This document shows, in pieces, positions 1-30,854 of a stretch of 32,234 nt of DNA. Origin of the DNA: Alphaproteobacteria bacterium MarineAlpha5_Bin7 (GTDB taxonomy: Bacteria > Pseudomonadota > Alphaproteobacteria > HIMB59 > GCA-002718135). The first letter of the stretch is position 1. Each line of letters starts with the position of its first letter. A program made the translations under genes and the position numbers. The notes beneath the pieces were generated by a model. That model searched no databases and was not told the DNA's origin. It saw nothing but the letters and a program-made list of their open reading frames with translations. The DNA is taken from the NCBI GenBank assembly GCA_002938195.1, contig PTKX01000013.1:1-32234 (forward strand). Reading direction: 5' to 3'.

Positions 1-930
1 GATTTAAATGATGTCAAAAAAATTTCATATGACGTTAAACAAAATTCTCTAATGATAGCTCAGACTCCGCATACTTACTCAGGTATAGAAATTGCAATTT
101 TAGATCTTTTAGGAAAAAAAAATCAGTGTCCAATTTTTGAATTGCTAGGTTATAAAAAATCAATTCCTAAAATTGCTTATGCTTCTGTTCTCTTTGGAAA
201 ATCCCCTAGCGAAACTTTTAATGTTGCCAGAGAAATGTTTAATAAAAAATTTAAAGCAGTAAAGTTTGGTTGGCAGAATTTTGGATCAAATCTAAATTCT
301 GACAATGATCACTTAATTGCAGCTAGAGAAGGATTGGGAACAGATATAATGTTAATGGTCGATGTTGGGGCAATTTGGGGCAATGACGTCGATGAAGCAT
401 TAAAAAGAGAAAAAATACTAAAAGAGGCAAATATTACTTGGCTTGAAGAACCTTTTTATAGTGATGCATTTTATGAATATTCAGAATTTACTAATAAAAC
501 ATTATTACCTCTAGCAGGAGGAGAGTCATGTCATTCTGTTGATTCAGCAAAAAATATGATTCATTTTGGTAAAGTCAAATATATTCAAATTGATGCAGGG
601 ATAGTTGGAGGTATTTTAGCTGGAAAAGAAATTTGTGAGTATGCTGAGAATAGAAATGTACAATATGTAAATCATACTTTTACTTCTCATCTCCAGTTAT
701 CAGCATCTTTGCAAGCATATGCTGGATCATTAAAAAGTACGTTGGCAGAATTCCCAATGCAATTAAAGTCTTTAGCTTGGGATATTACTAAGAACCATAT
801 TGTTAAAGACGATAATGGTTGTATCATTAATCCACTTGCAGTAGGGCATGGCATAATAATTAATGAGGAAGCTCTTAAACAATATAAGGTTGATGTTGAA
901 ATATATATTAATTCAAAGAAGACATTTTAG
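1..930 (+). CDS. Enolase superfamily (mandelate racemase/muconate lactonizing-type) sugar-acid dehydratase, 5' truncated by window
   Basis: The frame of the listed ORF (52..930) is open back to base 1 (DLNDVKKISYDVKQNSLMIA...), so the gene runs off the left edge. Motifs AVKFGW, LMVDVGA, WLEEPF, LAGGES, QIDAGIVGG fit an enolase-superfamily barrel. Confidence 0.85.
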   Translation, partial: DLNDVKKISYDVKQNSLMIAQTPHTYSGIEIAILDLLGKKNQCPIFELLGYKKSIPKIAYASVLFGKSPSETFNVAREMFNKKFKAVKFGWQNFGSNLNSDNDHLIAAREGLGTDIMLMVDVGAIWGNDVDEALKREKILKEANITWLEEPFYSDAFYEYSEFTNKTLLPLAGGESCHSVDSAKNMIHFGKVKYIQIDAGIVGGILAGKEICEYAENRNVQYVNHTFTSHLQLSASLQAYAGSLKSTLAEFPMQLKSLAWDITKNHIVKDDNGCIINPLAVGHGIIINEEALKQYKVDVEIYINSKKTF

Positions 931-935
931 TTAAA

Positions 936-2111: not shown

Positions 2112-3021
2112 TTTAAAAAAAACTGAATTAAAAAAATTAAAAGGTATTTTTCCTATTGTTTATTCTTTTTTTAATAAAAATAATTCCCTTGATAAAAAAC
2201 TTATCACAGAGCAGATTGAATTAATTTCAGATATAGGATCTAATGGTATTGCTTGTCTTGGTCTTGCAACAGAAGTTAATAAATTATCCTTTCGAGAAAA
2301 ACAAACTATTATCGAACTAATCTCAAAAACATGTACGGGAAAAATTCCTATAGCAGTTACTATTCAAGGAAATTCTTTTAAAGAATATGTTGATTTAATT
2401 AATGTTGCTAAATCTAACGAAGCAAGTTGGATTATACTCCAGCCTTTTTTAAAAAATAAAAAAAAATCCGAGCAAGATTGTTATAATTTTTTTGACAAAA
2501 TAATTCCTTATACAAATAATTCTATTTCAGGTATTCAAAATGCTATTGAATACTTAGGCGTTGGTCTTTCACCAAAAAATATTATTAAACTTTACAATAG
2601 ATTTCCTAATTTTAGAGTTATTAAAGGAGAAGCTTCTTCAGTATTTATTGAAAAAGAAATTAAACAATATCCAAAAGATTTATATGTATTCAATGGTAGA
2701 GGGGGTCAAGAAATAGTTGATAATTTTATGGTTGGATGCAAAGGGATAGTTCCTTGCTTGGATGGAGCAGATAGATTTTTAAAAATTTATAAGCTCATTA
2801 AAAATAAACGTATTATAGAAGCAAGAAAAGAATATCAAAAAATACTACCATCTATTGTATTTATTATGCAATCTATCAATACTCTTATTTGTTATGGAAA
2901 GCGCGTATGTGCTTTTCGTATGGGAGTAAGAAACATTTATGATAGAAAACCATTTCTTAGTCCTACAGATTATGGTATCAAAAAATCTAGAGAAATTGCT
3001 AAGATGTTAGGTAAATTTTAA
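2089..3021 (+). CDS. DapA/NanA-family (dihydrodipicolinate synthase-like) aldolase/dehydratase
   Basis: LKGIFPIVYSFFNKNNSLD N-terminus, LGLATEVNKLS, and RVIKGE with the Schiff-base Lys. Overlaps the upstream gene by 23 nt, so the true start may be a few codons later. Confidence 0.8.
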   Translation: MEQLLTGSLKKTELKKLKGIFPIVYSFFNKNNSLDKKLITEQIELISDIGSNGIACLGLATEVNKLSFREKQTIIELISKTCTGKIPIAVTIQGNSFKEYVDLINVAKSNEASWIILQPFLKNKKKSEQDCYNFFDKIIPYTNNSISGIQNAIEYLGVGLSPKNIIKLYNRFPNFRVIKGEASSVFIEKEIKQYPKDLYVFNGRGGQEIVDNFMVGCKGIVPCLDGADRFLKIYKLIKNKRIIEARKEYQKILPSIVFIMQSINTLICYGKRVCAFRMGVRNIYDRKPFLSPTDYGIKKSREIAKMLGKF

Positions 3022-4754
3022 TGGCTAAAGAAAAAAAATATCGCTCAAGCGAATGGTATAGCTCTAAGTCTCATAGAAGGGATACATTCATACATAGAGG
3101 TTGGATGAGGAATCAAGGGCATCCGAACCATCTTTTCGATGGCAGGCCAGTAATTGGAATTTGTAATACTTGGTCAGAATTAACTCCTTGCAATGGTCAT
3201 TTTAGAGAAATTGCTGAACATGTAAGAAGGGGTGTATATGAAGCTGGAGGCTTTCCATTAGAATTTCCAGTTTTTTCAGCTAGTGAATCAAACTTAAGAC
3301 CTACAGCAATGTTGTTTCGTAATCTAGCTAGCATGGATGTTGAAGAAGCAATAAGAGGAAATCCAATTGACGGAGTAGTGCTTTTAATGGGTTGTGATAA
3401 AACTACACCATCTCTATTAATGGGCGCAGCTAGTTGTGACCTTCCGACAATAGGTGTTTCTGGAGGACCAATGTTGAATGGACAACATAGAGGAAAAACT
3501 ATTGGGTCTGGCACAGGAGTTTGGAAACTGGATGCTGATTTGGCAGCTGGCGTAATTTCTGAAGATGATTTTGTAGAAGCTGAAATTTCAATGAGTAGAT
3601 CGAAAGGTCATTGTATGACAATGGGTACAGCTTCAACAATGGCAAGCATGGTAGAGTCTTTAGGAATGGCATTGCCGCACAATGCAGCTATACCAGCAGT
3701 AGATTCCAGAAGATATTCAAATGCTTTTCTTTCAGGAAAGAGAATTGTTGAAATGGTTAAAGAAAATTTAGTTATGTCTAAAATAATTACAAAAAAATCT
3801 TTTGAAAATGCAATAAAAGTTAATGGTGCAATTGGAGGTTCAACAAATGCAGTAATACATTTAGCTGCAATTGCTGGTAGAATGGAAATTGATCTTTCAT
3901 TAGATGATTGGGAAATATGTGGAAAAGAAATTCCAACACTTGTAAATCTACAACCATCAGGAGATTATTTAATGGAGGATTTCTATTATGCAGGGGGGTT
4001 GCCAGCAGTTATAAAAAAACTATTAGATAAAAATTTACTTAATAAAGAATCTCTTACTGTTAATGGAAAAACATTAGAACAAAATAATTTTGAAGCAGTT
4101 TGTTGGAATGAAGAAGTTATTAGGAATTTTGATAATCCAATAACAAAAGATGGTGGCATTAAAGTATTAAGAGGTAATATAGCACCTGATGGAGCTATAT
4201 TAAAACCTTCTGCAGCTTCAAAGCATTTAATGCAGCATACTGGCAAAGCTGTAGTATTTGAAAGTGTAGAAGAATTTCATAAAAAAATCCATGATCCCAA
4301 TCTAGATGTGGATGAAAATTCAATATTAGTTTTAAAAAATTGTGGACCAAAAGGTTACCCAGGTATGGCAGAAGTAGGAAATATGCTTTTACCTCAAAAA
4401 CTTCTGAAAAAAGGAGTAAGGGATATGATTAGAATTTCTGATGCTCGTATGAGTGGTACAGCTTTTGGAACTGTTATTTTACATACAGCTCCTGAATCCG
4501 CAGTCAAAGGCCCACTTGCAGCGGTTCAAAATGGAGATGAAATTAAAATTGATGTTGATAACGGTATAATGGAATTACTTGTTGATGAAAAAATAATATT
4601 GGAAAGATTAAAAAATTATAAACCAGTTCTTCCTGAAATTACTAGTGGTTATCAAAAAATGTATATTGATCATGTTAACCAAGCTAACAAAGGAGCAGAT
4701 CTTGACTTTTTAGTTGGCAGAAGAGGTACAGAGGTCAAACGCCATAGCCATTAA
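3021..4754 (+). CDS. IlvD/Edd-family dehydratase, probably sugar-acid (arabonate/xylonate-type) dehydratase
   Basis: GICNTWSELTPCNGHF, GCDKTTPSLLMGAAS, GHCMTMGTASTMA (Fe-S cysteines), GGSTNAVIHL, DARMSGTAFGTVILH. Confidence 0.88.
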   Translation: MAKEKKYRSSEWYSSKSHRRDTFIHRGWMRNQGHPNHLFDGRPVIGICNTWSELTPCNGHFREIAEHVRRGVYEAGGFPLEFPVFSASESNLRPTAMLFRNLASMDVEEAIRGNPIDGVVLLMGCDKTTPSLLMGAASCDLPTIGVSGGPMLNGQHRGKTIGSGTGVWKLDADLAAGVISEDDFVEAEISMSRSKGHCMTMGTASTMASMVESLGMALPHNAAIPAVDSRRYSNAFLSGKRIVEMVKENLVMSKIITKKSFENAIKVNGAIGGSTNAVIHLAAIAGRMEIDLSLDDWEICGKEIPTLVNLQPSGDYLMEDFYYAGGLPAVIKKLLDKNLLNKESLTVNGKTLEQNNFEAVCWNEEVIRNFDNPITKDGGIKVLRGNIAPDGAILKPSAASKHLMQHTGKAVVFESVEEFHKKIHDPNLDVDENSILVLKNCGPKGYPGMAEVGNMLLPQKLLKKGVRDMIRISDARMSGTAFGTVILHTAPESAVKGPLAAVQNGDEIKIDVDNGIMELLVDEKIILERLKNYKPVLPEITSGYQKMYIDHVNQANKGADLDFLVGRRGTEVKRHSH

Positions 4755-4762
4755 CGAATTCA

Positions 4763-5695
4763 ATGATTAATAAAAATGTATCAAATCAAATTATCGTATT
4801 TATTGATTGGGGAACTACTAACTTTAGAGCATACAAATTTGATTTAAAAGCAAATAAAGTATTAAAAAAAATTGAAACCGATAAAGGAATTTTAAATCTA
4901 AAAAATAGAAAGCAGTATATTAATATTATTTTAGATACTTTAAGAAAATTTCGTTTAAAAAAAGATCAATATATTTTGATGGCAGGTATGGTTGGGAGCA
5001 AAAAAGGACTTTATGAAGTTCCTTATGTTTCAGTTCCTACAACAATAAAAAAAATATCTTTAAAAATACCAGTTAAAAAAATTTCAAACATTAATATAAG
5101 AATTGTTCCTGGCTTAGTTTATAAAAAAAATAATTTTCTTGATGTAATACGAGGAGAAGAAACCTTAGTAATTGGAGCCATAAATAAAGTTAAAATAAGA
5201 AAATATTGCTTTCTTTGTTGCCCTGGAACACATTCAAAATGGATTTCTATTGAAAATAAAAAATTTAAATCTTTTTCTTCTTATATGAGTGGCGAAATAT
5301 ATTCTGCTATATATAAAGGTACCATTTTATTACAATCTTTACAAAAAAGTTCAAATAAGTTTTCTAAAAATTATTTTATAAAAGGACTTAATTTAATAAA
5401 GAGAGGATACTCATTTCCAAATATCCTATTTAAAATTCGTACTATGGATCTATTTAATCAATCAAAACCGTATGAGCGTAATTCTTTTTTATCTGGTTTA
5501 ATTATAGGTATGGAGATAAATGATATATCAAAACAAAAGAAAATATATAAATCTACTGTAATATTGATAGCTAGTGGTGCTTTAACTAAAATGTATTCAA
5601 TTGCCCTTAATTATTATAAAATTAAATACAATTTGGTTAATGCAGATGAATGCTTTATTAATGGAATGAAAAAAATATATGAATCAAATAACTAA
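4763..5695 (+). CDS. dgoK: 2-dehydro-3-deoxygalactonokinase (DgoK family)
   Basis: N-terminal FIDWGTTNFRAY, AGMVGSKKGLYEVPYV, RGEETLVIGA, CCPGTHSKW; followed by an aldolase gene overlapping it. Confidence 0.85.
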   Translation: MINKNVSNQIIVFIDWGTTNFRAYKFDLKANKVLKKIETDKGILNLKNRKQYINIILDTLRKFRLKKDQYILMAGMVGSKKGLYEVPYVSVPTTIKKISLKIPVKKISNINIRIVPGLVYKKNNFLDVIRGEETLVIGAINKVKIRKYCFLCCPGTHSKWISIENKKFKSFSSYMSGEIYSAIYKGTILLQSLQKSSNKFSKNYFIKGLNLIKRGYSFPNILFKIRTMDLFNQSKPYERNSFLSGLIIGMEINDISKQKKIYKSTVILIASGALTKMYSIALNYYKIKYNLVNADECFINGMKKIYESNN

Positions 5696-6305
5696 TAATT
5701 TTTTAAATTCACTTGCAAAATCAAAAATAGTAGTAATTTTGAGAAATATAGAACTACATCAATGCGAGGAATTCGTTGGTTTATTAGAAGAAAATCAACT
5801 AGATACTGTTGAAATAACTCTTAATTCTCCAGACCCTTTCTCTTGTATTGAATTAATTACAAAAAAATTTCCAAAAATTAATATAGGGGCTGGAACAGTA
5901 ATTGAGAAAAAAGACATAAAAAAATTAAAAGATTTGGGCGTAAAGTTTATAGTTTCTCCAAACACAAACCCAGAAGTAATAACGGAAACCTTAAATAACA
6001 ATTTAGTATCAGTTCCAGGTTTTTATACTGCTACAGAAGGGTTTAGTGCAGTCAAATACGGAGCTAGTATTTTAAAACTTTTTCCATCTGGAATAAATGG
6101 TTTGAATCTTTTAAAAGATTATTCAGCGGTTTTTCCAAAACATATCAAATTTATTCCTACAGGTGGAATAAATTTAGATAATTTAAAACAATTTTTGTCT
6201 AAATCTTTTGCGGTTGGAATAGGAAGTTCTTTGTTCTCTTCCAATATTTCATTAAATGAATTTTCTGATAGAATTCAAAATATAAAATCTTTAATTAAAT
6301 TATGA
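5679..6305 (+). CDS. dgoA: 2-dehydro-3-deoxy-6-phosphogalactonate/gluconate aldolase (DgoA/Eda family)
   Basis: KIVVILRNI, VEITLNSPDP, IGAGTVIEKKD, FIVSPNTNPEVI, LKLFPSG, FIPTGGI. Overlaps dgoK by 17 nt. Confidence 0.85.
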   Translation: MNQITNNFLNSLAKSKIVVILRNIELHQCEEFVGLLEENQLDTVEITLNSPDPFSCIELITKKFPKINIGAGTVIEKKDIKKLKDLGVKFIVSPNTNPEVITETLNNNLVSVPGFYTATEGFSAVKYGASILKLFPSGINGLNLLKDYSAVFPKHIKFIPTGGINLDNLKQFLSKSFAVGIGSSLFSSNISLNEFSDRIQNIKSLIKL

Positions 6306-7447
6306 AAATAGAAAAAATTGATCTTTATCCGGTTTCTGTACCATATAAGTTAATTGAAAAAAGTTCACGCGTTTATAGAAGTGGAGTTTCAGATATTATT
6401 ATTAAAATTACTACTAGTGACGGAATTGTTGGTTGGGGAGAAGCAACTAGAACAGCTAGCGCGAAAGTTATTCTTGAAACATTGAATGCAATGAAACCAA
6501 TTTTAATAAATAGTAATCCTTGGCAAAATTTAGAACATGAAAATAATATTTATAATACCGCTCTTTGGCATTGGTCTCCAATTACTGCTAACCTCGCATA
6601 TGGAGGAATTGATATGGCGCTGTGGGATATATATGGAAAAGATACTGGAAAACCTATTTATGAATTACTAGGGGGCAACCTAAGAAATGAGGTTAATTAT
6701 TTTTATTATCTCACTTGGACAAATATGGAAAATCTGGCTGAGCAATGCCAAGATGGTGTTGATAAAGGATATGAGGTTTTTTACTTAAAGATAGGAAAAG
6801 ACGAAAAAGTTGAAGAAGAGATGATCAAAACAGTTCGCAAGACAATAGGCCCTGACAAAAAAATAAGACTTGATACAAATATGTCATGGACAATACCTCA
6901 AGCAAAAAAATTAATTAATAAATGGAATGAAGAATATTCTATAGATTTTGTAGAAGCTCCAGTTCAAATTGAACCCTTAAGTCAAATGAAGGAGCTAAGT
7001 AAAAAAGTTAGTTCTTCATTATGTGTTAATGAGGGATTATGGAAAGAAAACGAATTCATTGATATTATAAATTCAAGATGTGGTGACTATTTATGTTGTA
7101 GTCATTACTATGTTGGAACAATAAGAAAATATCTACATTTAGCATATTTATCTAATTATTTAGGGTGGATGATTTGTAAACACACACATGGAGAATTAGG
7201 TTTAACAGCAGCAATTGGACAACATTTAATGTTAGTAATACCAAATGCTTGCGATGGCCATCAACAAACTGCTCAAAATATGGTTGATGATATTCTAACA
7301 GAGCCTATTCCCATTACTAATCAGCCTAATTGGAGTAAAATAGAGAACCCAGGAATAGGCGTTGAAGTAGATGAAGAAAAAGTTCTGTTTTATAATAAAA
7401 AATTCTTAGATGAAGGTGAGTTTTTGCCTTATGGAGATAGTTTTTAA
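6302..7447 (+). CDS. Enolase superfamily (mandelate racemase/muconate lactonizing-type) enzyme
   Basis: VGWGEATRTASAKV, GGIDMALWDIYGK, LLGGNLRNEV, IRLDTNMSWTIPQA, FVEAPVQ, VNEGLW, KHTHGELGL. Confidence 0.82.
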   Translation: MKIEKIDLYPVSVPYKLIEKSSRVYRSGVSDIIIKITTSDGIVGWGEATRTASAKVILETLNAMKPILINSNPWQNLEHENNIYNTALWHWSPITANLAYGGIDMALWDIYGKDTGKPIYELLGGNLRNEVNYFYYLTWTNMENLAEQCQDGVDKGYEVFYLKIGKDEKVEEEMIKTVRKTIGPDKKIRLDTNMSWTIPQAKKLINKWNEEYSIDFVEAPVQIEPLSQMKELSKKVSSSLCVNEGLWKENEFIDIINSRCGDYLCCSHYYVGTIRKYLHLAYLSNYLGWMICKHTHGELGLTAAIGQHLMLVIPNACDGHQQTAQNMVDDILTEPIPITNQPNWSKIENPGIGVEVDEEKVLFYNKKFLDEGEFLPYGDSF

Positions 7448-16515: not shown

Positions 16516-16516
16516 A

Positions 16517-19454: not shown

Positions 19455-20297
19455 TTATAAATATTTCTCACTTTTTAATTCATTTTCTTTAGGATTTCCT
19501 GATACAAGAAATATAGGTCTATAGCTAAAATCATATTTATGACCATTTGCACTAACTCTGTCCGGCAATGATCTATTAAAAAGACTCGTAGACGGCATGT
19601 ACCTAAGCACCAAAGCTTTTCTTGGTTTATCAGAGAAGTTTGCATCTGAACTATGAAGCAAGTATGTATCATGAAAGGAAACTTGACCTCTTTTTATTAT
19701 ACAATTTACCGAGGTATTCTTATCAAAAGAACTTTCATCAATTTTTAAATCTAAAGACCCTTTAAGCTCCCCATCTTGTTGAACCTTGTCTTCTTGTAGA
19801 TGAGGCAAAACTCCTAGTTTGTGAGATTTAGGAATAAACTGCATACACCCATTGGATGAGTCTACATCCGTTATTGCTATCCAAACTGAACAAGTTGCTT
19901 TGGGCTCAATAGGCCAATAGGTACCATCTTGATGCCATGGAATTTTTTTACCAGTCTTTGGCTCTTTGTGCATACAGTGCATACCCCATAATATTATATC
20001 AGAACCTAGAATCTTAATTACTTGCGAAACAATCTCATCGGATTTTCCAATCTCTAAAAAACTATTACAAAGATCTTTACTTTTGTTATGTTTAGCACCT
20101 GTCCCTTCATAAAGATGAGGAGAGGACATCTCTTCCAAAGTCAAATGTTTGTTCTTATCAATAAATTCATCATAAGTTATAGTTATTTTATCTATCAGAT
20201 TATTTGATAAATTCGAATCGGATACGAGAAAACCATTTTTATTATAGTTTTCTACGTCATTTTGACTAATTTTGAGCATATTTTTATTCGATATCAT
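19455..20297 (-). CDS. Phytanoyl-CoA dioxygenase (PhyH)-family Fe(II)/2-oxoglutarate oxygenase
   Basis: IPWHQDGTYWPI (HxD), VSFHDTYLLHSSDANFSDKPRKALVLRY (distal His and Arg). Confidence 0.87.
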   Translation of the reverse strand: MISNKNMLKISQNDVENYNKNGFLVSDSNLSNNLIDKITITYDEFIDKNKHLTLEEMSSPHLYEGTGAKHNKSKDLCNSFLEIGKSDEIVSQVIKILGSDIILWGMHCMHKEPKTGKKIPWHQDGTYWPIEPKATCSVWIAITDVDSSNGCMQFIPKSHKLGVLPHLQEDKVQQDGELKGSLDLKIDESSFDKNTSVNCIIKRGQVSFHDTYLLHSSDANFSDKPRKALVLRYMPSTSLFNRSLPDRVSANGHKYDFSYRPIFLVSGNPKENELKSEKYL

Positions 20298-20327: not shown

Positions 20328-20342
20328 AATTGTCAGACAATT
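20328..20342. promoter_or_regulatory. Palindromic operator-like site AATTGTCAGACAATT (GntR/FadR-type)
   Basis: Perfect 7-bp arms around a central A, in the 19455(-)/20426(+) divergent gap. Core TTGTCAGACAA recurs at 29180-29190. Confidence 0.7.
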
Positions 20343-20353
20343 TATCCACAATT
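20342..20353 (+). promoter_or_regulatory. Shared 12-mer TTATCCACAATT containing DnaA-box consensus TTATCCACA
   Basis: Identical 12-mer at 29232-29243; both lie in divergent intergenic regions with the palindromic operator. Confidence 0.45.
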
Positions 20354-20425
20354 GAGCAAATATGACAGTTTACAAATATTTTTAAATGACAATTATAGCA
20401 ATTTAATTATTGGGAGGTAATTTTT

Positions 20426-21433
20426 ATGTCTAAAAAAAGAACCCTAGATCAAATAAAATCTAGAAGAAAATTTTTGCAAGGTGGCGCAGCGATGGGAGCT
20501 ATGGCACCACTACTATTTGCAAATAATGTTCAAGCACATGGCTCAAGATTAAAAGATAATAAAGATCAAGAGTATGTAATTGTATCTATTGTAGCAACTC
20601 ATCCATTTTGGAATGATTTAAAAAATGGAGCTCAAGATGCAGCAGATGACTTAGGAGTAAGTTTTTCATATGTTGGACCAGCTGGGTTTGATGTTGAAGG
20701 ACAAGTTCAAGCCATGGAACAAATTATAATTAAGAAACCTGCAGGTATCGGACAAGTACATTCTACTGATGCTGCGTATCCATCTATTCAAAAAGCATTA
20801 GATTCTGGAATTCCAGTTATGCATTTAACTAGTATGGGCGCTAATTCTCCAGCCTTAGGTTATATTGGAAGTAATGAGGAAAACGTTGGTCTAGTTATGG
20901 CAAAAGGTGTTAAGGAATTATTAGGCACTTCAGGAAAAATAGCTGTATCAACAGTTCCAGCACAAGATAACTTAAATGATAGAATAGCTGGTTTAGAAAA
21001 AGGTCTTGAAGGAACTGATATTAAAATTGTTGCTACAGGTGATAATAAAGCAGATGACTCAGTAACTGCTTCGTCAACTTCTGCTATCCTTCTTGCAAAT
21101 CCAGATCTAGACGCTGTTGTATGTATTAATGCAACTGGTTCAGGTGTTGCAGCTGCTTTAAAAGAAACTGGTAAAGTTGGAAAAGTAAAAGCAGTAATTG
21201 CCGACACTCTTGCTCCAATTCTTGATGCAGTTGAAGATGGCACAGTTGATTATACTGTCGGCCAACAAATATATATGCAGGGTTATATATGGATGCAAAT
21301 GATGTATGCTATTGCCAACCCAACTCCTGTTATCAAAGGGTTTTTGGATGGAGGTTTAAATCCATTTCCAACTAACTGTGATACAGGATGTAACTTAATA
21401 GATAAGAATACAGCAAAATTATATAGAGGATAA
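20426..21433 (+). CDS. Sugar ABC transporter periplasmic binding protein, RbsB-like, Tat-type signal
   Basis: Strong SD TGGGAGGTAA (20411-20420); leader MSKKRTLDQIKSRRKFLQGGAAMGAMAPLLFANNVQA; QVHSTDAAYPSIQKALDSGIPVMHL and IGSNEENVG typical of Peripla_BP_4. Confidence 0.9.
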   Translation: MSKKRTLDQIKSRRKFLQGGAAMGAMAPLLFANNVQAHGSRLKDNKDQEYVIVSIVATHPFWNDLKNGAQDAADDLGVSFSYVGPAGFDVEGQVQAMEQIIIKKPAGIGQVHSTDAAYPSIQKALDSGIPVMHLTSMGANSPALGYIGSNEENVGLVMAKGVKELLGTSGKIAVSTVPAQDNLNDRIAGLEKGLEGTDIKIVATGDNKADDSVTASSTSAILLANPDLDAVVCINATGSGVAAALKETGKVGKVKAVIADTLAPILDAVEDGTVDYTVGQQIYMQGYIWMQMMYAIANPTPVIKGFLDGGLNPFPTNCDTGCNLIDKNTAKLYRG

Positions 21434-23004
21434 TGAGTGATTTTCCTCATGAAAAACCGGCACTTTTTAGTGCCGGTTCTTATATTGAAATTAAGTTAAA
21501 AAATATTTCAAAAAAATTTCCTGGAGTTCAAGCCTTAGATGATGTTGATTTTTTTTTAAAATCTAACGAAGTTCATGCATTGGTAGGAGAAAATGGTGCT
21601 GGTAAAAGCACTTTGATGAAAATTATGGCTGGAATTCAAAAACCAGATCAAGGTAAAATTTTACTTAATAATAAAGAAATTCAATTTAATTCTCCAAGAG
21701 AAGCGCAAAATAATGGCATATCAATAGTTCATCAAGAAGCAGATTTATTCCCTTCACTTACAGTTGCAGAAAATGTATTTGCTAATGATTTGCCAACTAA
21801 AGGATTTCTTCAAACAGTAGATTATAAAAAAATACAAGATCAAACAAATGAACTATTAATCAAATTTGGCCATCCAGAAATAAATTCAAAAGATATAGTT
21901 AATTCTTTATCTGTAGGACAGAGACAAATTGTTGAAATTATAAAAGCACTTTCATTAAATTCTAACATAATTATATTTGATGAACCTACTGCAGTACTCA
22001 CACCCAGTGAAACTGATATTCTTTTTTCAATTATTGAAGACTTAAAAAAAAATAATATTGCTATCGCATATATTTCGCATAGACTTGAGGAAATTGGAAA
22101 AATATCTGATTATGTTACTGTACTAAAAGACGGCAAGCATATGGCAACTAAAGAAATTCAAAATATCAATCCAGAAGAAATGATTAAACTTATGGTTGGA
22201 AGAGATTTAAAACATATTTTTGAAGATGAAGATAGAGAAATTAGTAATGATATCTTGTTTGAAGTTCAAAATTTAAAAAATTCTCAATTTTTTGAAGATA
22301 TAAGTTTTAATATTAAAAAAGGAGAAATTGTCGGTTTTTCAGGACTAATAGGCGCTGGAAGAACAGAACTTGCACTTACTTTATTTGGGTTTTATCAATC
22401 AGAAGGTGGAAAAGTTATTTTAGATGGAAAAGAAATAAACATTAATAATCCAACTGAAGCAATAGATTCAGGCATAGTATATGTTAGTGAAGAAAGAAGA
22501 GAGAAAGGCCTATTTACAGAAATGACTGTAAGAAACAATCTAATTTCTCCTAATCTAGATCTTGTAGCGAAAAATGGCATCCTTAATAATAGTCAAATAA
22601 ATGAATTAACACAAAAAAGTATTGATCAGCTAAATATTAAAACAAATAGTGATGAAACATATGTATTAAAATTAAGTGGTGGAAACCAACAAAAAATTGC
22701 TTTAGGCAAATGGCTGCCTAAAAACCCCAAACTATTAATAATCGATGAGCCGACAAGAGGGGTTGATGTGGGCGCAAAACAAGAAGTTTATAAAATTATA
22801 AGGGAATTATCTAATCAAGGAACTTCTATAATGTTGATTTCTTCAGAGTTACCAGAAATTATAGGAATTTGTGATAGAACAATCGTAATGCGATCAGGTA
22901 GAATTCATGGTGAAATTTCAAAAAAAGATTTTTCTGAAGAATTAATTTTAAAATATGCTTCTGGTTACTCTGGGCAAAGTAAAAATAATCAAATGGAGAT
23001 TTAA
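21433..23004 (+). CDS. Sugar ABC transporter ATP-binding protein, RbsA/MglA-like (tandem ATPase)
   Basis: GENGAGKSTLMKIMAG, LSVGQRQIVEI, second domain GLIGAGRTELALTLFG, LSGGNQQKIALGKWL, IDEPTRGVDVGAKQEVY. Confidence 0.93.
   Translation: MSDFPHEKPALFSAGSYIEIKLKNISKKFPGVQALDDVDFFLKSNEVHALVGENGAGKSTLMKIMAGIQKPDQGKILLNNKEIQFNSPREAQNNGISIVHQEADLFPSLTVAENVFANDLPTKGFLQTVDYKKIQDQTNELLIKFGHPEINSKDIVNSLSVGQRQIVEIIKALSLNSNIIIFDEPTAVLTPSETDILFSIIEDLKKNNIAIAYISHRLEEIGKISDYVTVLKDGKHMATKEIQNINPEEMIKLMVGRDLKHIFEDEDREISNDILFEVQNLKNSQFFEDISFNIKKGEIVGFSGLIGAGRTELALTLFGFYQSEGGKVILDGKEININNPTEAIDSGIVYVSEERREKGLFTEMTVRNNLISPNLDLVAKNGILNNSQINELTQKSIDQLNIKTNSDETYVLKLSGGNQQKIALGKWLPKNPKLLIIDEPTRGVDVGAKQEVYKIIRELSNQGTSIMLISSELPEIIGICDRTIVMRSGRIHGEISKKDFSEELILKYASGYSGQSKNNQMEI
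21455..21478 (+). other. Strong inverted repeat inside the N-terminal codons of the ATPase ORF
   Basis: AACCGGCACT-TTTT-AGTGCCGGTT: perfect 10-bp stem, 4-nt loop, 22 nt after the binding-protein stop codon; no T-tract afterwards. Confidence 0.75.
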
Positions 23005-23007
23005 TTT

Positions 23008-23970
23008 ATGACTGATATTATAATAAGATTATTTAAAATTAGAGAAATTCCTCTTTTTTTATTTTTAATTGCTGTAGCAATATTAGGTTCATTTATTTCT
23101 CCTTATTTTTTACTAAGTGCCAATTTTAGTGCTGTATTTTTAGGATTATCTTTAGATGCAATAATTGTAATAGCAATGTGCATGCTTCTTATAAGTGGCG
23201 GCTTTGATTTATCTGTTGGAGCAAACCTGGCTTTTTCAGGCATGGTATGTGGAATATGTATGGCTAACTTTGGGATGCCTTGGCCACTAGCTTGTATACT
23301 AGCAATACTGTGCGGAACAATGATTGGAGTCGCAAATGGTTTAATGGTTACTAGATTTTTTGTTAATCCTTTAATTGCAACTTTAGGAATGTTAACTATT
23401 GTGAGAAGCCTCACTTTAATTGTTTCAGGTGATAGGGCTATGAGCTCCTTTCCTAAAGCATTCCAATTAATTGGCCAGGGAAAAATTTTTGGTATTCCAA
23501 ATCCTATTTGGATTTTTATTCTTTTTGTAATTGTTGCTGAATTTGTATTACGAACTATGAAAATTGGAAGATTACCTTTTTTTGTGGGAAGCAATCCTCA
23601 AGCAGCTGAATTATCAGGTCTTAGGGTTAAAAGAATACAATTTATTTTATATGCTTTATGTGGATGTGCTGCTGGAGTAGCTGGTGTAGTCTCAACTGCA
23701 AGATTAAATGCTGCTTTTCCTCTTGCTGGAAATGGTGCAGAACTTAGAATTATAGCTGCAGCAGTAATTGGAGGATGCAGTTTATCTGGTGGTCAGGGAT
23801 CTATTATTGGAGCCTTTCTTGGTGTGGTATTGATGGCAATTATCAACAATTTACTAATTCTTACAGGTGTTAATGTTTATTATCAAGGACTTGTAGCTGG
23901 ACTTGTTTTAATTGGCGCAGTTGGTTTTGATGAATATTCAAAAAGAAAAAGAGGAGAGGTTAGATCATGA
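23008..23970 (+). CDS. Sugar ABC transporter permease, RbsC-like
   Basis: LLISGGFDLSVGANLAFSG, NPLIATLGMLTIVRSL, FFVGSNPQAAELSGLRVKRIQF, AAAVIGGCSLSGGQGSIIGAFLG. Confidence 0.93.
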   Translation: MTDIIIRLFKIREIPLFLFLIAVAILGSFISPYFLLSANFSAVFLGLSLDAIIVIAMCMLLISGGFDLSVGANLAFSGMVCGICMANFGMPWPLACILAILCGTMIGVANGLMVTRFFVNPLIATLGMLTIVRSLTLIVSGDRAMSSFPKAFQLIGQGKIFGIPNPIWIFILFVIVAEFVLRTMKIGRLPFFVGSNPQAAELSGLRVKRIQFILYALCGCAAGVAGVVSTARLNAAFPLAGNGAELRIIAAAVIGGCSLSGGQGSIIGAFLGVVLMAIINNLLILTGVNVYYQGLVAGLVLIGAVGFDEYSKRKRGEVRS

Positions 23971-25082
23971 GTGAACTAATAACTAATGCCGCTGTTTTAA
24001 GAGAAGCAAAAAAACCTTTGAGTTTTGAGGAATTGACAATTGATACACCGCAAGCAGGCGAAGTAAGGATTAAACTTCGTTCATGTGGAGTTTGTCACAC
24101 AGATTATTCTTTGGCAAAAGGAATTTTAGATCATCAGCCAATCCCTTCAGTTTTAGGTCATGAAGGATCAGGCGTAATTATTGATGTGGGCCCAGGAGTA
24201 AGTAATGTAAAAAAAGGTGACCATGTTGTAATGGCTCCAATAGCTCCTTGTGGTCAGTGTAGCAGATGTTTAAACCAAGAAGGTGCTTATTGTGAAAGAG
24301 AAGAGGTAAGAGGGTGGGGAATTTTACCAGATGGAAGAACGCCTCTTAAAGATAAAAATGGTGATGGAGTAGCAATAGGTTTTAATACTGGTTTTTATTC
24401 AGATTATTCAGTAGTCCCATCTACAGCTGTAGCAAAAATTCCAAAAGATGTTTCATTTGAAATAGCATCTTTGTTAGGCTGTGCAGTTGTAAGTGGATAT
24501 GGCGCTGTTGTTAATACCGCTGCTCTTCAAGTAGGACATTCAATTCTGATAGTAGGATTAGGGGGTGTCGGCCTTAGTGCAGTGATGGCAGCTAAACTAA
24601 GAGGTGCATATCCAATAATTGGAGTGGATACAAATAATGAAAGAAGAGAATTAGGTATGGAGATTGGCTGTGATCAGGTTATGAGCGCAGAAGATTTCAA
24701 TAATATTAATTTAAGTGATTTTAATGGTGGTTTTGATTCAATTATAGAAGCTTCCGGAGCTGTTCCAGCAATTGAAAAATGTATGAGTTTATTAAGAAGG
24801 CATGGAATATGTGTTTATGTTGGTGCTGCTGAATCTACTTATGAACTAAAAATACCTCATTTAGAACTTGTTGCAACTGGTAAAAGATTATCTGGATGTT
24901 TAACAGGCGAGGTTAGACCTGCAGTTGATTTAGCAAATCTAGCTAAATTATATTCTGCTGGAAGATTACCATTAGATATTTTCATTTCTAACAGAAGACC
25001 GCTAGATGAGCTAGAGCTAGCTTTTGATGATTTAGAAAAAGGTATTGGCTTAAGAACTTTAATAGTCTGGCCCGAAAAATAA
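23967..25082 (+). CDS. Zinc-dependent alcohol dehydrogenase (MDR family)
   Basis: SCGVCHTDYSLAKG, LGHEGSGVI, PCGQCSRCLNQEGAYC, GLGGVGLSAVMAAKLRGA. Confidence 0.9.
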   Translation: MSELITNAAVLREAKKPLSFEELTIDTPQAGEVRIKLRSCGVCHTDYSLAKGILDHQPIPSVLGHEGSGVIIDVGPGVSNVKKGDHVVMAPIAPCGQCSRCLNQEGAYCEREEVRGWGILPDGRTPLKDKNGDGVAIGFNTGFYSDYSVVPSTAVAKIPKDVSFEIASLLGCAVVSGYGAVVNTAALQVGHSILIVGLGGVGLSAVMAAKLRGAYPIIGVDTNNERRELGMEIGCDQVMSAEDFNNINLSDFNGGFDSIIEASGAVPAIEKCMSLLRRHGICVYVGAAESTYELKIPHLELVATGKRLSGCLTGEVRPAVDLANLAKLYSAGRLPLDIFISNRRPLDELELAFDDLEKGIGLRTLIVWPEK

Positions 25083-25097
25083 TACAAGGAGGATATT

Positions 25098-25964
25098 ATG
25101 AAAGATATTTTAGCAACTGGCCTTTTATTTCCTGAAGGACCTGCCGTACTCTCTGACGGTACTGTTTTGTGCTCAGAACAAGGTGCAAGTCAAATAACTA
25201 TAGCTGAAGGAGAAGGGGGAAAAGTTTACGCTAAAACTGGAGGCTCTCCTAATGCAGCCATAGTTGGAGCAAATGACAATGTTTATGTCACGCAAAATGG
25301 AGGAGCAGTCGGAGGATGGAGAGCTGAGAAAAATATCTCTCCGAGTATTCAAAAAATTAATAAAGATAGAAATATCGAAGAAATTTGTCTTTCGTCAAAT
25401 GATGGAAATTTAAAAGCTCCAAACGATCTAGTTTTTGCTGCTGATGGTACGTTGTGGTTTACTGATTCTGGTCAAGCTTTTGATTTTGATAATATGGTTG
25501 AACATTCTAGAATTATTAGTTTGTCAAAAAATAGAGAGGCAAAAACAATTTTAGATACAGGCCCAGTTTACAATAATGGCATATCTATAGATAATGAAAA
25601 TAATATTTGGTGGGCTGAAACTATTCCTTTGGCTATGTGTAAATTAGTTAATGGTGAGAGAAAGCAATTATGTACACTACCAGAGAATCATTTTCCAGAT
25701 GGTTTTGTAGCATCTCAAGACGGTAGAATATTTATTGCTACAACTTATGGTCATAATATTACAATTATAAATCCAGAAGGAAAGATTGATGGTTTTATTG
25801 AATTAGACGATCAAGCTATACCAACTAATTGTATATTTGATGGTTCTGATTTAATTATATCTGATTTTGGCACAGGATGGGAGAATAATGAAAAGAGCGG
25901 TCGTATTTGGAGAGTTTCAACAGATGCGGTTGGATACGAGAGAGTTTTAGGTCAAATAGATTAA
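25098..25964 (+). CDS. SMP-30/gluconolactonase/LRE-family lactonase
   Basis: GLLFPEGPAVLSDGTVLCSE, KAPNDLVFAADGTLWFTDSG, GPVYNNGISID, FPDGFVASQDGRIFIA. Preceded by SD AAGGAGG. Confidence 0.9.
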   Translation: MKDILATGLLFPEGPAVLSDGTVLCSEQGASQITIAEGEGGKVYAKTGGSPNAAIVGANDNVYVTQNGGAVGGWRAEKNISPSIQKINKDRNIEEICLSSNDGNLKAPNDLVFAADGTLWFTDSGQAFDFDNMVEHSRIISLSKNREAKTILDTGPVYNNGISIDNENNIWWAETIPLAMCKLVNGERKQLCTLPENHFPDGFVASQDGRIFIATTYGHNITIINPEGKIDGFIELDDQAIPTNCIFDGSDLIISDFGTGWENNEKSGRIWRVSTDAVGYERVLGQID

Positions 25965-25974
25965 AAAGAATAAT

Positions 25975-27180
25975 ATGAAAATTATTTCAGTTAAAACAAT
26001 AAGGCCTAATGCATTTCCTAATCTGGTATATATTCATTTAACTACAGATGAGGGTATAGTTGGATTAGGAGAAACATTTTTAGGTGCAGCAGGCATTGAA
26101 GCTCATATGCATGAAGTTATAGCGCCCTATTTATTAGATGTTGATCCATCAAAGATTTCTCTTCATCACGAATTATTAAGAGGTTTTCTAGGAACAGGCG
26201 GAAGTGGCACAGAAAATAGAGCTCGCTCTGCCGTTGATATAGCTTTATGGGATATTCATGGAAAAAATCTAGGAAAGCCTCTCATAAAACTATTAGGAGG
26301 GGGCGTAAGAGATAAAATTCAAATATACAATACTTGTGCTGGTCCAAATTATGCAAAAAGCGTACCTATTGCTGGAAGAGTTGCAAAAAATATATGGCAA
26401 TTACCAGATTCTAAAAACGACCCTTATGAGGATTTGCAATTGTATATGACAGATGCAGGAAAATTAGCCAAAGATCTTTTAAAAAATGGTGTGATGGGAA
26501 TGAAGATATGGCCTTTTGACGAACATTTAGATCGAAGTGGAGGTCATTGGATAACTAATAAAGAACTTGATGCAGGGTTAAAACCTTTTCGTCAAGTAAG
26601 GGAAGCTGTAGGTAATGATATAAATTTGATGGCAGATATTCATACTAATTGGGACGTTCCAAATGCTATTAAAATTGCAAAAGCTTTGAAGGAATATAAT
26701 ATTAATTGGGTTGAAGATCCAGTAAGACCAAATGTAGAAGCTTTTAAACACTTTAGAAAAGAAGTTAAAGTACCATTAGCTGCAGGAGAAACTATGGGAG
26801 CTGCTTCTAACTACCTTCCTTTTCTTCAAAATGGCTTAATAGATTATATGATGTTTGATCCTGTTTGGATTGGAGGAATTACAGAATCTTTAAAAGCAGC
26901 AACACTAGCTGACGCACATCAAATTCCAATTAGTATTCATGATTGCAATGGTCCAGTTAATTTTACAGTTGGTGTAAATTTGTCTTTGGCAATAACTAAT
27001 GCATGTACATATGAAACTGCAAGAGGTTTTTACTATGGATGGTATCATGAACTGTTAGAAGAAGTTCCTCTTATAGACAATGGCTTTGTTACTTCACTAA
27101 ATGGAGATGGGCTTGGAATTAAATTAAAAGAAAAATGGTTAGATAAAGCTAATAGTACAATTATTGAAACAAAAAATTAA
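25975..27180 (+). CDS. Enolase superfamily (mandelate racemase/muconate lactonizing-type) sugar-acid dehydratase
   Basis: GIVGLGETFLGA, RSAVDIALWDIHGK, MKIWPFDEH, LMADIHTNWDV, WVEDPVRP, AAGETMG, SIHDCNGP. Confidence 0.88.
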   Translation: MKIISVKTIRPNAFPNLVYIHLTTDEGIVGLGETFLGAAGIEAHMHEVIAPYLLDVDPSKISLHHELLRGFLGTGGSGTENRARSAVDIALWDIHGKNLGKPLIKLLGGGVRDKIQIYNTCAGPNYAKSVPIAGRVAKNIWQLPDSKNDPYEDLQLYMTDAGKLAKDLLKNGVMGMKIWPFDEHLDRSGGHWITNKELDAGLKPFRQVREAVGNDINLMADIHTNWDVPNAIKIAKALKEYNINWVEDPVRPNVEAFKHFRKEVKVPLAAGETMGAASNYLPFLQNGLIDYMMFDPVWIGGITESLKAATLADAHQIPISIHDCNGPVNFTVGVNLSLAITNACTYETARGFYYGWYHELLEEVPLIDNGFVTSLNGDGLGIKLKEKWLDKANSTIIETKN

Positions 27181-28175
27181 AATACTTTTTTAATAAAATA
27201 TTCTGGATTTTTAGATTGTTTAATTATTGCTGGAATCATTTCAACTAAAGCGTTTAAAAAATTAGGATTTGGTTTTGGCATTTGATCTTTTATTAAATTA
27301 TGTAATTTAGGTAGATTATAAAAAGGAATTTGAGGAAAAATATGATGTTCAATATGATATTGCATGTTCAAATAGCATAACCAACCTAAAATAGGGTTAG
27401 TATAAAATGTTCTTGTACTTTCTCTGTGGTCCCAACTATCAGCTCTTAATCCTCCGTGTTGGGTCATTACTAAAAATTGTAAAAAAATACTTCCATAAAT
27501 ATTTGGAGTAAAAATAAACATTAATGGAAGAAAGCTATTTATATAAAAAGCCCAAGAAATTAAGAAAATTTTTGTAAACATTAAAAATCTACTGTTCCAT
27601 ATCATTGCAGTTCTTTGGTTTTCTGGAACACAATCTAATGCTAATGGGGTCATTATTCCCAATGAATGAAGAAATATTTTTTTAAACTCGTTCCACAATA
27701 AACTACACTTAAAACATTCTAGAAAAAATAATGAAAATAACTTAGCAGGTCTAGTTACTTGAATTTCATAATCAACTCCTTGATGAATAGTCCTGGAATG
27801 ATGATGATGATGGCTCCACCGCCATGAAACTGATTCTAAGTAATGTAAAAAACTAGAAATTTCATAAAAAAGATTGTTTAAAAACTTTGATTTAAAAAAA
27901 GTTTTATGTCCATATTCATGCCACCTGGCGTTAGTAAAAGAATAAAAAGTTCCATACAGTAAAAAAGCTGGAATTGCGTACCATGTTCCCCAAGATAAGT
28001 AAGCCAGATATCCAAAAATTATAAGTAAAGAAAAATATATAAATGTATTTAGAATAGCTGGAAGCTCTCTTTTTTTATGCAACTCTTTTAAAATTTCTTT
28101 ATCAATTTTTGGTCGCCACCACTTTTTCACACTTTCATTATGAAATTCAATATTATTATATCCGTATTTATTCAT
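27177..28175 (-). CDS. Membrane fatty acid desaturase family protein
   Basis: Histidine boxes ARWHEYGHKTFF, WSHHHHHSRTIH, LNMQYHIEHHIFPQIPFYNLPKLH plus hydrophobic segments. Confidence 0.88.
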   Translation of the reverse strand: MNKYGYNNIEFHNESVKKWWRPKIDKEILKELHKKRELPAILNTFIYFSLLIIFGYLAYLSWGTWYAIPAFLLYGTFYSFTNARWHEYGHKTFFKSKFLNNLFYEISSFLHYLESVSWRWSHHHHHSRTIHQGVDYEIQVTRPAKLFSLFFLECFKCSLLWNEFKKIFLHSLGIMTPLALDCVPENQRTAMIWNSRFLMFTKIFLISWAFYINSFLPLMFIFTPNIYGSIFLQFLVMTQHGGLRADSWDHRESTRTFYTNPILGWLCYLNMQYHIEHHIFPQIPFYNLPKLHNLIKDQMPKPNPNFLNALVEMIPAIIKQSKNPEYFIKKVF

Positions 28176-28366
28176 TAATCACTAATATTATTTTCATTTT
28201 TTGTTACTACTTCTGGAAAAATCCATATCCCAATTATCATTAGTAGTGTCAAAAATATTAAAGCGTATATTAGATTAACTTGTCCAAAAAATGATTCAAA
28301 AAGAATCACCAATATTGATGCAATTATTATGTAAACTGTAAGAGAGATTTTAATTTTTATAGGCAT
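28175..28366 (-). CDS. Small two-helix membrane protein of unknown function
   Basis: 63 aa, two hydrophobic segments (VYIIIASILVILF, LIYALIFLTLLMIIGIWIF). Stop overlaps the desaturase start as TAATG, suggesting translational coupling. Confidence 0.65.
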   Translation of the reverse strand: MPIKIKISLTVYIIIASILVILFESFFGQVNLIYALIFLTLLMIIGIWIFPEVVTKNENNISD

Positions 28367-28377
28367 TTTTTATTTTT

Positions 28378-29163
28378 TTATATTTCATTTTTTTTTGATT
28401 TTAAGATCTCTTTTTTAATATATTTAGTATTATATCCATTGAAAAAATGACCTAAAAGCCCTCTATTTAAATCTGAAGTACCAAATAACCAATCTCCAAA
28501 AGGAAAAGTTAAATTCATATTTAGAGCCATCATAATTCCTTTATTATGATGAGCTGCATGATGTCTTCTAATCGTATTTATGAAAGGCGTATTTCTTACA
28601 ATTACATTATCTTTAATATGACAACAAAAATGCATGATTTCGTAAAGTAAATAAAAAGAAGTCGTGCTGCAAATAAATAACCATCCTACGTTAGTAGATA
28701 TTATTAAACTTAAAATGATTACCCCAGGAGCTGATAATACAGCGATAAAAACAGCAAGTGCGTAGGGAGGAAATAATGTTACTCTCCAGTCATGAGGACC
28801 TGCAAACCTCATTTCTTCTTCAGTAAAGAACTGATGGTGTTGCAATGTATGTCTTGAGTAAATTGCCTTTGCTCCAGGAAATACTCTTGGCTTGTGCATC
28901 ACAAACCTATGAATCCACCATTCAAATAAGTTAGAACCTATGATGGTGATAGGTATTATTGACCATTCCCACCATACTACGTTTTGTATATGGGATGTAA
29001 AATAGTAAATAGCTGTAAAACCAATAGCAAAAATCATTCCAAGGTGAACAAATCCGTTATACCAACCTTTTAAATTGTCCCTATATTTTTTTCTAAATTC
29101 CTTTTGATCTTTATTAAAATTTCCTAATTTTAGTTCTAATTCATTCATATTTTTATCAAACAT
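28378..29163 (-). CDS. Fatty acid hydroxylase/sterol desaturase superfamily membrane protein
   Basis: FEWWIHRFVMHKPR, YSRHTLQHHQFF, HFCCHIKDN, RRHHAAHHN. The listed start (TTG, 29190) lies in the operator; ATG at 29163 or 29148 is more plausible. Confidence 0.85.
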   Translation of the reverse strand: MFDKNMNELELKLGNFNKDQKEFRKKYRDNLKGWYNGFVHLGMIFAIGFTAIYYFTSHIQNVVWWEWSIIPITIIGSNLFEWWIHRFVMHKPRVFPGAKAIYSRHTLQHHQFFTEEEMRFAGPHDWRVTLFPPYALAVFIAVLSAPGVIILSLIISTNVGWLFICSTTSFYLLYEIMHFCCHIKDNVIVRNTPFINTIRRHHAAHHNKGIMMALNMNLTFPFGDWLFGTSDLNRGLLGHFFNGYNTKYIKKEILKSKKNEI

Positions 29164-29179
29164 CAATATATATATTAAT

Positions 29180-29190
29180 TTGTCAGACAA
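29180..29190. promoter_or_regulatory. Palindromic operator-like site TTGTCAGACAA (GntR/FadR-type)
   Basis: Perfect 5-bp arms around a central A; identical core to 20330-20340; in the divergent gap between 29163(-) and 29298(+). Confidence 0.7.
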
Positions 29191-29231
29191 TTAAACTTTT
29201 ATGTAAAGCATATTTTCTCACGTTAGATAGA

Positions 29232-29243
29232 TTATCCACAATT
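29232..29243 (+). promoter_or_regulatory. Shared 12-mer TTATCCACAATT containing DnaA-box consensus
   Basis: Identical to 20342-20353. Confidence 0.45.
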
Positions 29244-29255
29244 TTACAATTATTT

Positions 29256-29285
29256 TTTACAATTACATAAATAAGCTAATATAAT
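29256..29285 (+). promoter_or_regulatory. Candidate promoter for the PanB-like gene
   Basis: TTTACA (29256-29261), 18-nt spacer, TATAAT (29280-29285), 12 nt before the ATG at 29298. Confidence 0.5.
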
Positions 29286-29297
29286 TAAATTAAAAAT

Positions 29298-30143
29298 ATG
29301 GTTAAAAAATATAAAAAAGTATTCTCTATTAGTCTTGAACAAGGGTATAGAAACTATACTGTTCGTGATTTAATAGACTTAAAAGGAAAAAAAAAATTAA
29401 CACAAATTCATGTTTCTACTCCAGAAGAGGCTGCAGCTGCTGAAGAAGCAAGTATAGATTTACTATTGGTTAGAGCATGTCCAGAATTACATTCTATTCG
29501 CAAAGCTGCTCCTAAAACTTTTATGACAGTATCTATTCCTTTTATTAAATATGCCTCCAAAGACCATATAGTTAAAGATTCTTTAGAGGTAATTGAAATG
29601 GGGGTGGATTCTATCACTTGCGGTTCTTGGAATTTAGATTTTATGAAATATTTAAATGGTTTTCAAATTCCTTTTCAAGGACATGCAGGTTTAGTGCCAA
29701 GAAGATCAACTTGGACTGGGGGTATTAAAGCAGTGGGAAAAACATATCAAGAAGCTATAAAATTGTATAAGCAAATAAAAGATATAGAAGACAGTGGTGC
29801 TTGGAGTGTAGAAATTGAATGTGTGCCCCACAAAGTTATGGAAGCGATATCAAAAAATACATCACTCGTAACAATATCTATTGGATCTGGAAATAAAAGT
29901 GATGTTCAATTTTTATTTGCAGAAGATATACTTGGGTGTAGTTCTATAAAACTTCCAAGGCATGCAAAAAAATATAGAGATTTCAATAGGTTCTATCAAA
30001 AAATGCAAAAAGAGAGAATTAATGCATTTAAAGAATATAAAAAAGATGTATTACAAAATAATTTTCCACTAAAAAAACACTCAATTGATATAGAAAATAA
30101 AGAAATTGAAAAATTTCAAAAATATTTAAGCCAGGAAAAATGA
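29298..30143 (+). CDS. PanB-like (ketopantoate hydroxymethyltransferase superfamily) TIM-barrel protein, probably non-canonical
   Basis: IPFQGHAGLVPRRSTWTGGIKAVGKT, DSGAWSVEIECVPHKVMEAISKNTSLVTISIGSGNKSDVQFLFAEDILG follow PanB motif order (GHxGLxPQ, E-x-VP, IGIGAG-DGQ, DxLG), but several active-site positions differ. Confidence 0.72.
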   Translation: MVKKYKKVFSISLEQGYRNYTVRDLIDLKGKKKLTQIHVSTPEEAAAAEEASIDLLLVRACPELHSIRKAAPKTFMTVSIPFIKYASKDHIVKDSLEVIEMGVDSITCGSWNLDFMKYLNGFQIPFQGHAGLVPRRSTWTGGIKAVGKTYQEAIKLYKQIKDIEDSGAWSVEIECVPHKVMEAISKNTSLVTISIGSGNKSDVQFLFAEDILGCSSIKLPRHAKKYRDFNRFYQKMQKERINAFKEYKKDVLQNNFPLKKHSIDIENKEIEKFQKYLSQEK

Positions 30144-30182
30144 TTATCTTTACAAATTTAAAACATTCAAACTATTTATCAA

Positions 30183-30854
30183 ATGCAAACTGACTCAACA
30201 TACTTACTGTGTAAAAAAATTTTTAGAGGCAATAAGCAAGGATCAAAGCTCGTGAATGAAAATTTGTTAGCCATTAAGTATGGTGTTAGTAGAGCATCAT
30301 TAAGAGAGGCTCTTAAAATTTTAAAATCAAAAGGAATTATTAAAAGCAAACAAAAAACAGGAACAGTGATAGAAAAGTATGAAAATTTAAATTTTTTTGA
30401 TAGAGATATACTTGCATGGTCTAAAGGTTCAAAATATGCAGAAAATCTTAGGAAATATTTTATTGAAACTCGATTAATTTTTGAACCAGAAATTACATAT
30501 TTATGCGCCAAACACATTGACTCAAAAAGTAAAAAAGAACTTAATTTAATTTTTAATTCTTTAAAAAATAGTGTCAAAAAAAAAGATATGAAAAAAATAA
30601 TTTCTAATGATTTAGCTTTTCATAGAAAAATAATTTTAAATTGTGGCAATCCAATTTTATATCCTCTTTTGGAATTTATTAATCATGTATTGGAATTAAA
30701 TTTTACTGCAAATCAAAATGAACAAAAAAATTATTTTTTAGGATGGGAAAAAAAGTATTTAAAACAACATGAAGATTTAAAAAATTATATTCTTAAGAAT
30801 AAACCTTTAAAGGCAAAAAATAAAATGATTTCACTTATTTATGAAAATATATAA
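30183..30854 (+). CDS. GntR-family transcriptional regulator, FadR/FCD subfamily
   Basis: wHTH LLAIKYGVSRASLREALKILKSKGIIKSKQKTGTVI; C-terminal FCD-like region RLIFEPEITYLCAKH...DLAFHRKIILNCGNPIL. Confidence 0.87.
   Translation: MQTDSTYLLCKKIFRGNKQGSKLVNENLLAIKYGVSRASLREALKILKSKGIIKSKQKTGTVIEKYENLNFFDRDILAWSKGSKYAENLRKYFIETRLIFEPEITYLCAKHIDSKSKKELNLIFNSLKNSVKKKDMKKIISNDLAFHRKIILNCGNPILYPLLEFINHVLELNFTANQNEQKNYFLGWEKKYLKQHEDLKNYILKNKPLKAKNKMISLIYENI

Follow-up and report, generated by a model that had tools for sequence, protein, structure and literature searches.

Based on the analysis reported here, we suggest that, in Alphaproteobacteria bacterium MarineAlpha5_Bin7, the FCD-type GntR regulator encoded at 30183-30854 recognises the palindrome TTGTCNGACAA as its operator. 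In the model that we consider likely, this regulator would be a DgoR-like repressor that acts on both divergent promoters carrying the palindrome, one of which drives its own expression, until a metabolite releases it from the DNA. As judged from sequence, there is good in silico support for a local regulon comprising an RbsBAC-ADH-lactonase-dehydratase operon, a gene for a PhyH-family dioxygenase and a PanB-like gene. Our confidence in the pairing of operator and regulator derives from the two intergenic, top-scoring sites, their rarity, their conservation in orthologous promoters, the detection of only one GntR protein genome-wide and the fact that site and regulator are also neighbours in a second species. 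The window, i.e. the whole stretch of DNA analysed, consists of all 32,234 nt of contig PTKX01000013.1, and was compared within a set of 110 family genomes, among them the single-cell genome AG-457-F14 (G071; 67% complete) and AG-893-I03 (G093). The relevant features of the window are:

52..7447, +: candidate further regulon genes for MR/MLE dehydratases, a DHDPS-like protein, an IlvD/EDD dehydratase, DgoK and a KDPGal-type aldolase
19455..20297, -: PhyH-family 2OG-Fe(II) dioxygenase, divergent from RbsB (PF05721)
20328..20342, unstranded: operator 1, AATTGTCAGACAATT, in the promoter region between the divergent PhyH and RbsB genes
20426..21433, +: RbsB-type sugar-binding protein (PF13407)
21433..23004, +: RbsA-type sugar ABC ATPase (PF00005, in two stretches)
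23008..23970, +: RbsC-type permease (PF02653)
23967..25082, +: Zn-dependent alcohol dehydrogenase (PF08240/PF00107)
25098..25964, +: SMP-30/gluconolactonase-like lactonase (PF08450)
25975..27180, +: enolase-superfamily (MR/MLE) sugar-acid dehydratase (PF13378/PF02746; best NCBIfam match gluconate/galactonate dehydratase, below cut-off)
27177..28175, -: fatty-acid-desaturase-family gene downstream of the hydroxylase gene (PF00487); regulon membership uncertain
28378..29163, -: fatty-acid-hydroxylase-family membrane protein (PF04116); regulon membership positional only
29178..29192, unstranded: operator 2, ATTTGTCAGACAATT (11-bp core at 29180-29190), in the promoter region between the divergent hydroxylase gene and PanB-like/gntR pair
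29256..29285, +: TTTACA-18-TATAAT, the best sigma-70-like promoter in the stretch from operator 2 to the PanB-like gene (11/12, a consensus match only)
29298..30143, +: PanB-like (ketopantoate hydroxymethyltransferase-superfamily) gene
30183..30854, +: FCD-type GntR regulator, putative repressor of the regulon

Two palindromes in divergent promoters

A sequence-only reading of this DNA had placed palindromes at 20328-20342 and 29180-29190, in divergent intergenic regions and close to the starts of the minus-strand genes. Both are present and perfect over those spans, and they lie ~17-43 bp from the minus-strand ATGs. Operator 1 has a central A and is palindromic over all 15 bp; operator 2 is perfect over the 11 bp of TTGTCAGACAA, with flanks (ATTTGTC...ACAATT) that are asymmetric outside this core. 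Using a matrix built from six intergenic sites, operators 1 and 2 among them, the two operators score 24.4 and 22.3 bits, respectively, and the next match in the window, which is coding, scores 8.1 bits. Both operators are intergenic, and intergenic DNA makes up 2.3% of the window. When the two intergenic regions were dinucleotide-shuffled, the core arose 5/40000 and 0/40000 times. A genome-wide scan, proposed earlier as a check, showed the motif to be rare, with three exact core copies in the 1.226 Mb genome (93% complete). The third copy is in the gyrA start region, where it encodes the first gyrA codons, and gyrA of G103 carries the same coincidence.

The arrangement differs between the two strands. 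Operator 1 overlaps a hexamer that resembles a -35 element of the PhyH promoter, and operator 2 is 17-27 bp upstream of the hydroxylase ATG. At the plus-strand genes, the operators are 86-108 bp from the ATG and upstream of the predicted -35 or promoter. This latter position is unlike that of a classical repressor site, and activation, or control of the minus-strand genes only, would therefore suit it as well.

Each operator-bearing intergenic region also contains one copy of TTATCCACA (20342-20350 and 29232-29240), which occurs nowhere else in the window (0.4 copies expected). The copy beside operator 1 is kept in G071. This sequence is identical to a strong DnaA box; here, it might serve as an element of the promoter or as a further site of regulation.

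Conservation of the operator in relatives

The sequence-only reading had also proposed a comparison of orthologous intergenic regions, and here the site held up: it is kept at the PhyH/RbsB promoter in three species and, in G093, beside a diverged regulator. In G071, AATTGTCAGACAATT lies between a PhyH gene whose product is 80% identical to that in the window and an RbsBAC-ADH-lactonase-dehydratase operon with 84-93% identity. In G093, AATTGTCCGACAATT lies between the genes for PhyH (69% identical) and a binding protein (27%), while the rest of the intergenic region aligns poorly; the operon at this locus also holds an ortholog of the PanB-like gene (76%). A second copy in G093, AATTGTCAGACAAAA, is found 31 bp past the point where a fragment of an FCD gene ends and ~35 bp before a sugar ABC transporter operon that starts with a sugar-binding protein. 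The product of this fragment is ~40% identical to the window regulator over 108 aligned residues; because the gene ends at the contig end, its DNA-binding domain is outside view. The second operon encodes orthologs of an SDR (72%), the IlvD/EDD dehydratase (82%), DgoK (48%) and the KDPGal-type aldolase (47%) of the window, and adjoins the gene for the FAD oxidase ortholog (73%) on the opposite strand. In shuffles of the two G093 regions, the core arose 1/40000 and 0/40000 times.

Across the 110 family genomes, the full AATTGTCNGACAATT occurs in four copies, all four of them intergenic and beside genes for solute-binding proteins. The fourth copy, in G004, is the full palindrome AATTGTCAGACAATT (C5:19792-19806; L106 ~11792) in a divergent promoter flanked by a hydantoinase-like gene and by a gene whose product is a solute-binding protein exported via TAT; the transporter that it precedes is unrelated. 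The FCD gene of G004 is on another contig, and its 3.4-kb locus is without the site. In G071, at 67% completeness, the FCD gene was not found though the site is present. G106 and G107 have PanB-like orthologs (69-78%), and an FCD gene was not detected in these genomes; the neighbourhoods that were read lack the site. The 3.5-kb loci of distant FCD homologs in the class (~30% identity) are not enriched for TTGTCNGACAA, and the operator is thus not general to the FCD subfamily. Matches across the family to the core alone were rejected as regulon members, most of those examined being coding (the gyrA start, a 163-aa protein and a 540-aa protein). GTTGTTCAACAAC, which is present next to further FCD genes in the family, was dropped because it lies inside the matched FCD coding stretch.

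A single FCD-type GntR regulator

The 30183-30854 protein has an N-terminal GntR winged helix-turn-helix (wHTH) domain (PF00392, 37.6 bits; cut-off 27) and a C-terminal FCD domain (PF07729, 46.3 bits; cut-off 24.3). It is the only protein in the genome detected by either model and, thus, the sole GntR-family protein detected. The regulator gene had been described as just downstream of the second site; it is actually ~1 kb away, behind the PanB-like gene. Given the gap of ~40 bp and the shared strand, the PanB-like and regulator genes are probably one transcript from a promoter downstream of operator 2. When the genome contigs were searched with the regulator as query, no match was returned; the same search with PhyH as query led to the G071 and G093 loci.

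Among solved structures, the unnamed GntR protein 6az6 is the best match, followed by DgoR (7c7e, E 1.3e-10), and AlkR (9isw) matches with E 0.37. In DgoR, the metal ligands are D146/H150/H195 and R102 is a pocket residue (PMC7674646). D143, H147, H196 and R97 of the window regulator are at least 90% conserved among aligned homologs, in the pattern of a D-x3-H...H pocket with an Arg, and appear to match these ligands and R102, respectively; the correspondence is from a phmmer alignment for R97-R102 and D143/H147 and from the alignment pattern only for H196. Published residue-base correlations relate HTH positions 28, 40 and 59 to position 6 of the site (PMC4494728). In an alignment read by eye, the window regulator has Asn, not Arg, at 28 and Lys, not Gly, at 59, both of which fit TTGT, and Ser at 40, which would favour TGGT.

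The putative regulon

On the sugar side, the substrate class is indicated by the genes of the contig. The lactonase, MR/MLE dehydratases (one of which is above the galactonate dehydratase cut-off; NF010624, 327.8 bits, cut-off 311), an IlvD-type dehydratase, DgoK (230.6 bits) and a KDPGal-type aldolase point to sugar acids, and a linkage of the dgoK/dgoA/dgoD type is present. The 52-7447 region is a dense sugar-acid cluster with several MR/MLE dehydratases and an IlvD dehydratase of the L-arabinonate/dihydroxy-acid type. Its promoter is off the contig, the start of which cuts the first gene; the G093 orthologs of its IlvD, DgoK and aldolase genes are in the operator-led second operon, making the cluster a candidate for further regulon genes. 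Elsewhere on the contig, a 340-aa protein (16493-17515), encoded between an SDR and a Zn-ADH, has no Pfam match above cut-off and a weak match to xylose-isomerase-like TIM barrels (E 0.005).

The PanB-like protein scores 101.8 bits against the PanB equivalog cut-off of 207.6 and is probably not a ketopantoate hydroxymethyltransferase. Its relatives are present in nearly all family genomes, often as tandem pairs, and the protein tracks with sugar-acid genes.

The regulon as first proposed also included the desaturase and hydroxylase genes. The sequence evidence upholds the RbsBAC-ADH-lactonase-dehydratase operon, PhyH and the PanB-like gene, but not the membrane-lipid genes as a conserved feature: relatives of the hydroxylase were not found in the other 109 family genomes (present in 1/110). 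The lipid arm is therefore weak: it depends on a single site in a single genome, and control of the PanB-like/gntR side could account for operator 2. Because operator 2 is very near the hydroxylase start, the hydroxylase may well be affected nonetheless.

Discussion

From these data, we infer that the 30183 protein binds the sites, that it represses rather than activates, that it controls its own gene and to which class its effector belongs. In the model, a dimer of the regulator would bind the 15-bp AT-flanked palindrome in the two divergent promoters. Via operator 1, it would most likely repress PhyH and the RbsBAC-ADH-lactonase-dehydratase operon; via operator 2, it would most likely repress the PanB-like/gntR transcript, resulting in autoregulation, and, judging from where the site lies, the hydroxylase gene on the other side. 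The ligand of the metal-containing FCD pocket would probably be a product of the pathway, either a sugar acid or its 2-keto-3-deoxy form, and the ligand-bound repressor would leave the DNA. In other words, sugar uptake and oxidation would be on only when the sugar is present.

The presence of the site in G071, where the FCD gene was not detected, and of the full palindrome in G004 far from its FCD gene could also be accounted for if the sites were operators of a non-GntR transcription factor that recognises TTGTCNGACAA, with the nearby FCD gene being coincidental. We consider this unlikely. The spacing and sequence match published FCD operators base for base, the site adjoins the FCD regulator in both genomes that hold the closest regulator pair, and no further GntR-family protein was detected in the genome of the window. 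It is extremely improbable that both palindromes are functionless AT-rich chance repeats. The 11-mer does fall by chance in coding DNA across the family, including in gyrA of the window's genome, and a rough estimate from base composition expects ~1 core copy in a genome of this size; however, the two sites are both intergenic, shuffles rarely give the core, and the site is kept at the orthologous promoter in G071 as well as in the strongly diverged intergenic region of G093.

It could further be argued that the regulator is mainly an AlkR-like sensor of lipids or acyl-CoA that controls the hydroxylase and desaturase genes, with the sugar genes as secondary targets. AlkR binds this same sequence ahead of alkB2 and leaves it in response to long-chain acyl-CoAs, and operator 2 is positioned just 17-27 bp from the hydroxylase ATG. 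By contrast, the PhyH/RbsB site is kept in three species while the hydroxylase is absent from the 109 other family genomes, the regulator matches DgoR far better than AlkR, and the sites in G093 precede sugar genes only. We therefore regard a lipid sensor as very unlikely. A broader scheme, in which the sole GntR regulator of a streamlined genome couples the uptake of sugar and the oxidation of sugar acids to PhyH, the PanB-like protein and the hydroxylase/desaturase pair such that membrane remodelling is switched with carbon supply, is doubtful but has some small chance of being correct. If sugar and lipid genes were under such joint control, PhyH and the PanB-like protein would represent undescribed steps of a pathway for a sugar or modified sugar.

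The DgoR-like repressor model provides a testable assignment of regulator, operator and regulon in a streamlined marine alphaproteobacterium with few local regulators left. Through their shared control, it also links two enzymes with unassigned roles, i.e. PhyH (three genomes) and the PanB-like protein (two genomes), to a pathway for sugars and sugar acids.

FadR-subfamily operators have the form TKGT-N3-ACMA (PMC4494728), and the sites in the two divergent promoters, TTGT-CAG-ACAA, have this form. The earlier suggestion of a FadR/FCD-type operator is thus borne out: AlkR footprints on the identical 11-mer, and LhgR on one in which the central base is the opposite. The FCD regulator AlkR, which represses the alkane monooxygenase gene alkB2, protects ATTGTCAGACAAT in DNase footprinting (PMC12042122), and this sequence is identical to operator 1 over the central 13 bp of the latter. 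However, AlkR regulates alkB2 from a site in front of this gene and senses long-chain acyl-CoAs, which release it (PMC12042122), and its similarity to the window regulator is very weak and limited to the HTH. LhgR, a GntR regulator of Pseudomonas putida W619, protects the autoregulatory site TTGTCTGACAA (PMC8206213), which has the same core except for the central base; LhgR differs in that it controls L-2-hydroxyglutarate oxidation.

The closest parallel is DgoR, which represses the D-galactonate dgo operon in E. coli. Both regulators belong to the FCD subfamily and are related in sequence, and they apparently share the metal triad and pocket Arg. The DgoR IR1 contains AATTGTAGTACAA (PMC12288454), an odd-length palindrome with the same GT-N3-AC spacing, and the window regulator is linked to DgoK, KDPGal-type aldolase and galactonate-dehydratase-like genes. 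The systems differ in the central triplet of the operator, which is CNG here and ANT for DgoR, and in operator number: each divergent promoter of the window has one TTGTCAGACAA, and the two close repeats of the DgoR type (TTGTA-N-TACAA) are absent. Moreover, the putative regulon described here includes an RbsBAC transporter, a PhyH dioxygenase and a PanB-like gene. Thus, the system is ordinary in kind, being a local FCD/GntR regulon, and is another example of a well-known type of regulator rather than a new type of system, while its gene set is uncommon. Together with AlkR and LhgR, it would illustrate how FCD regulators that are only distantly related share one 11-bp sequence while serving quite different metabolism, i.e. 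that of alkanes, hydroxyglutarate and sugar acids.
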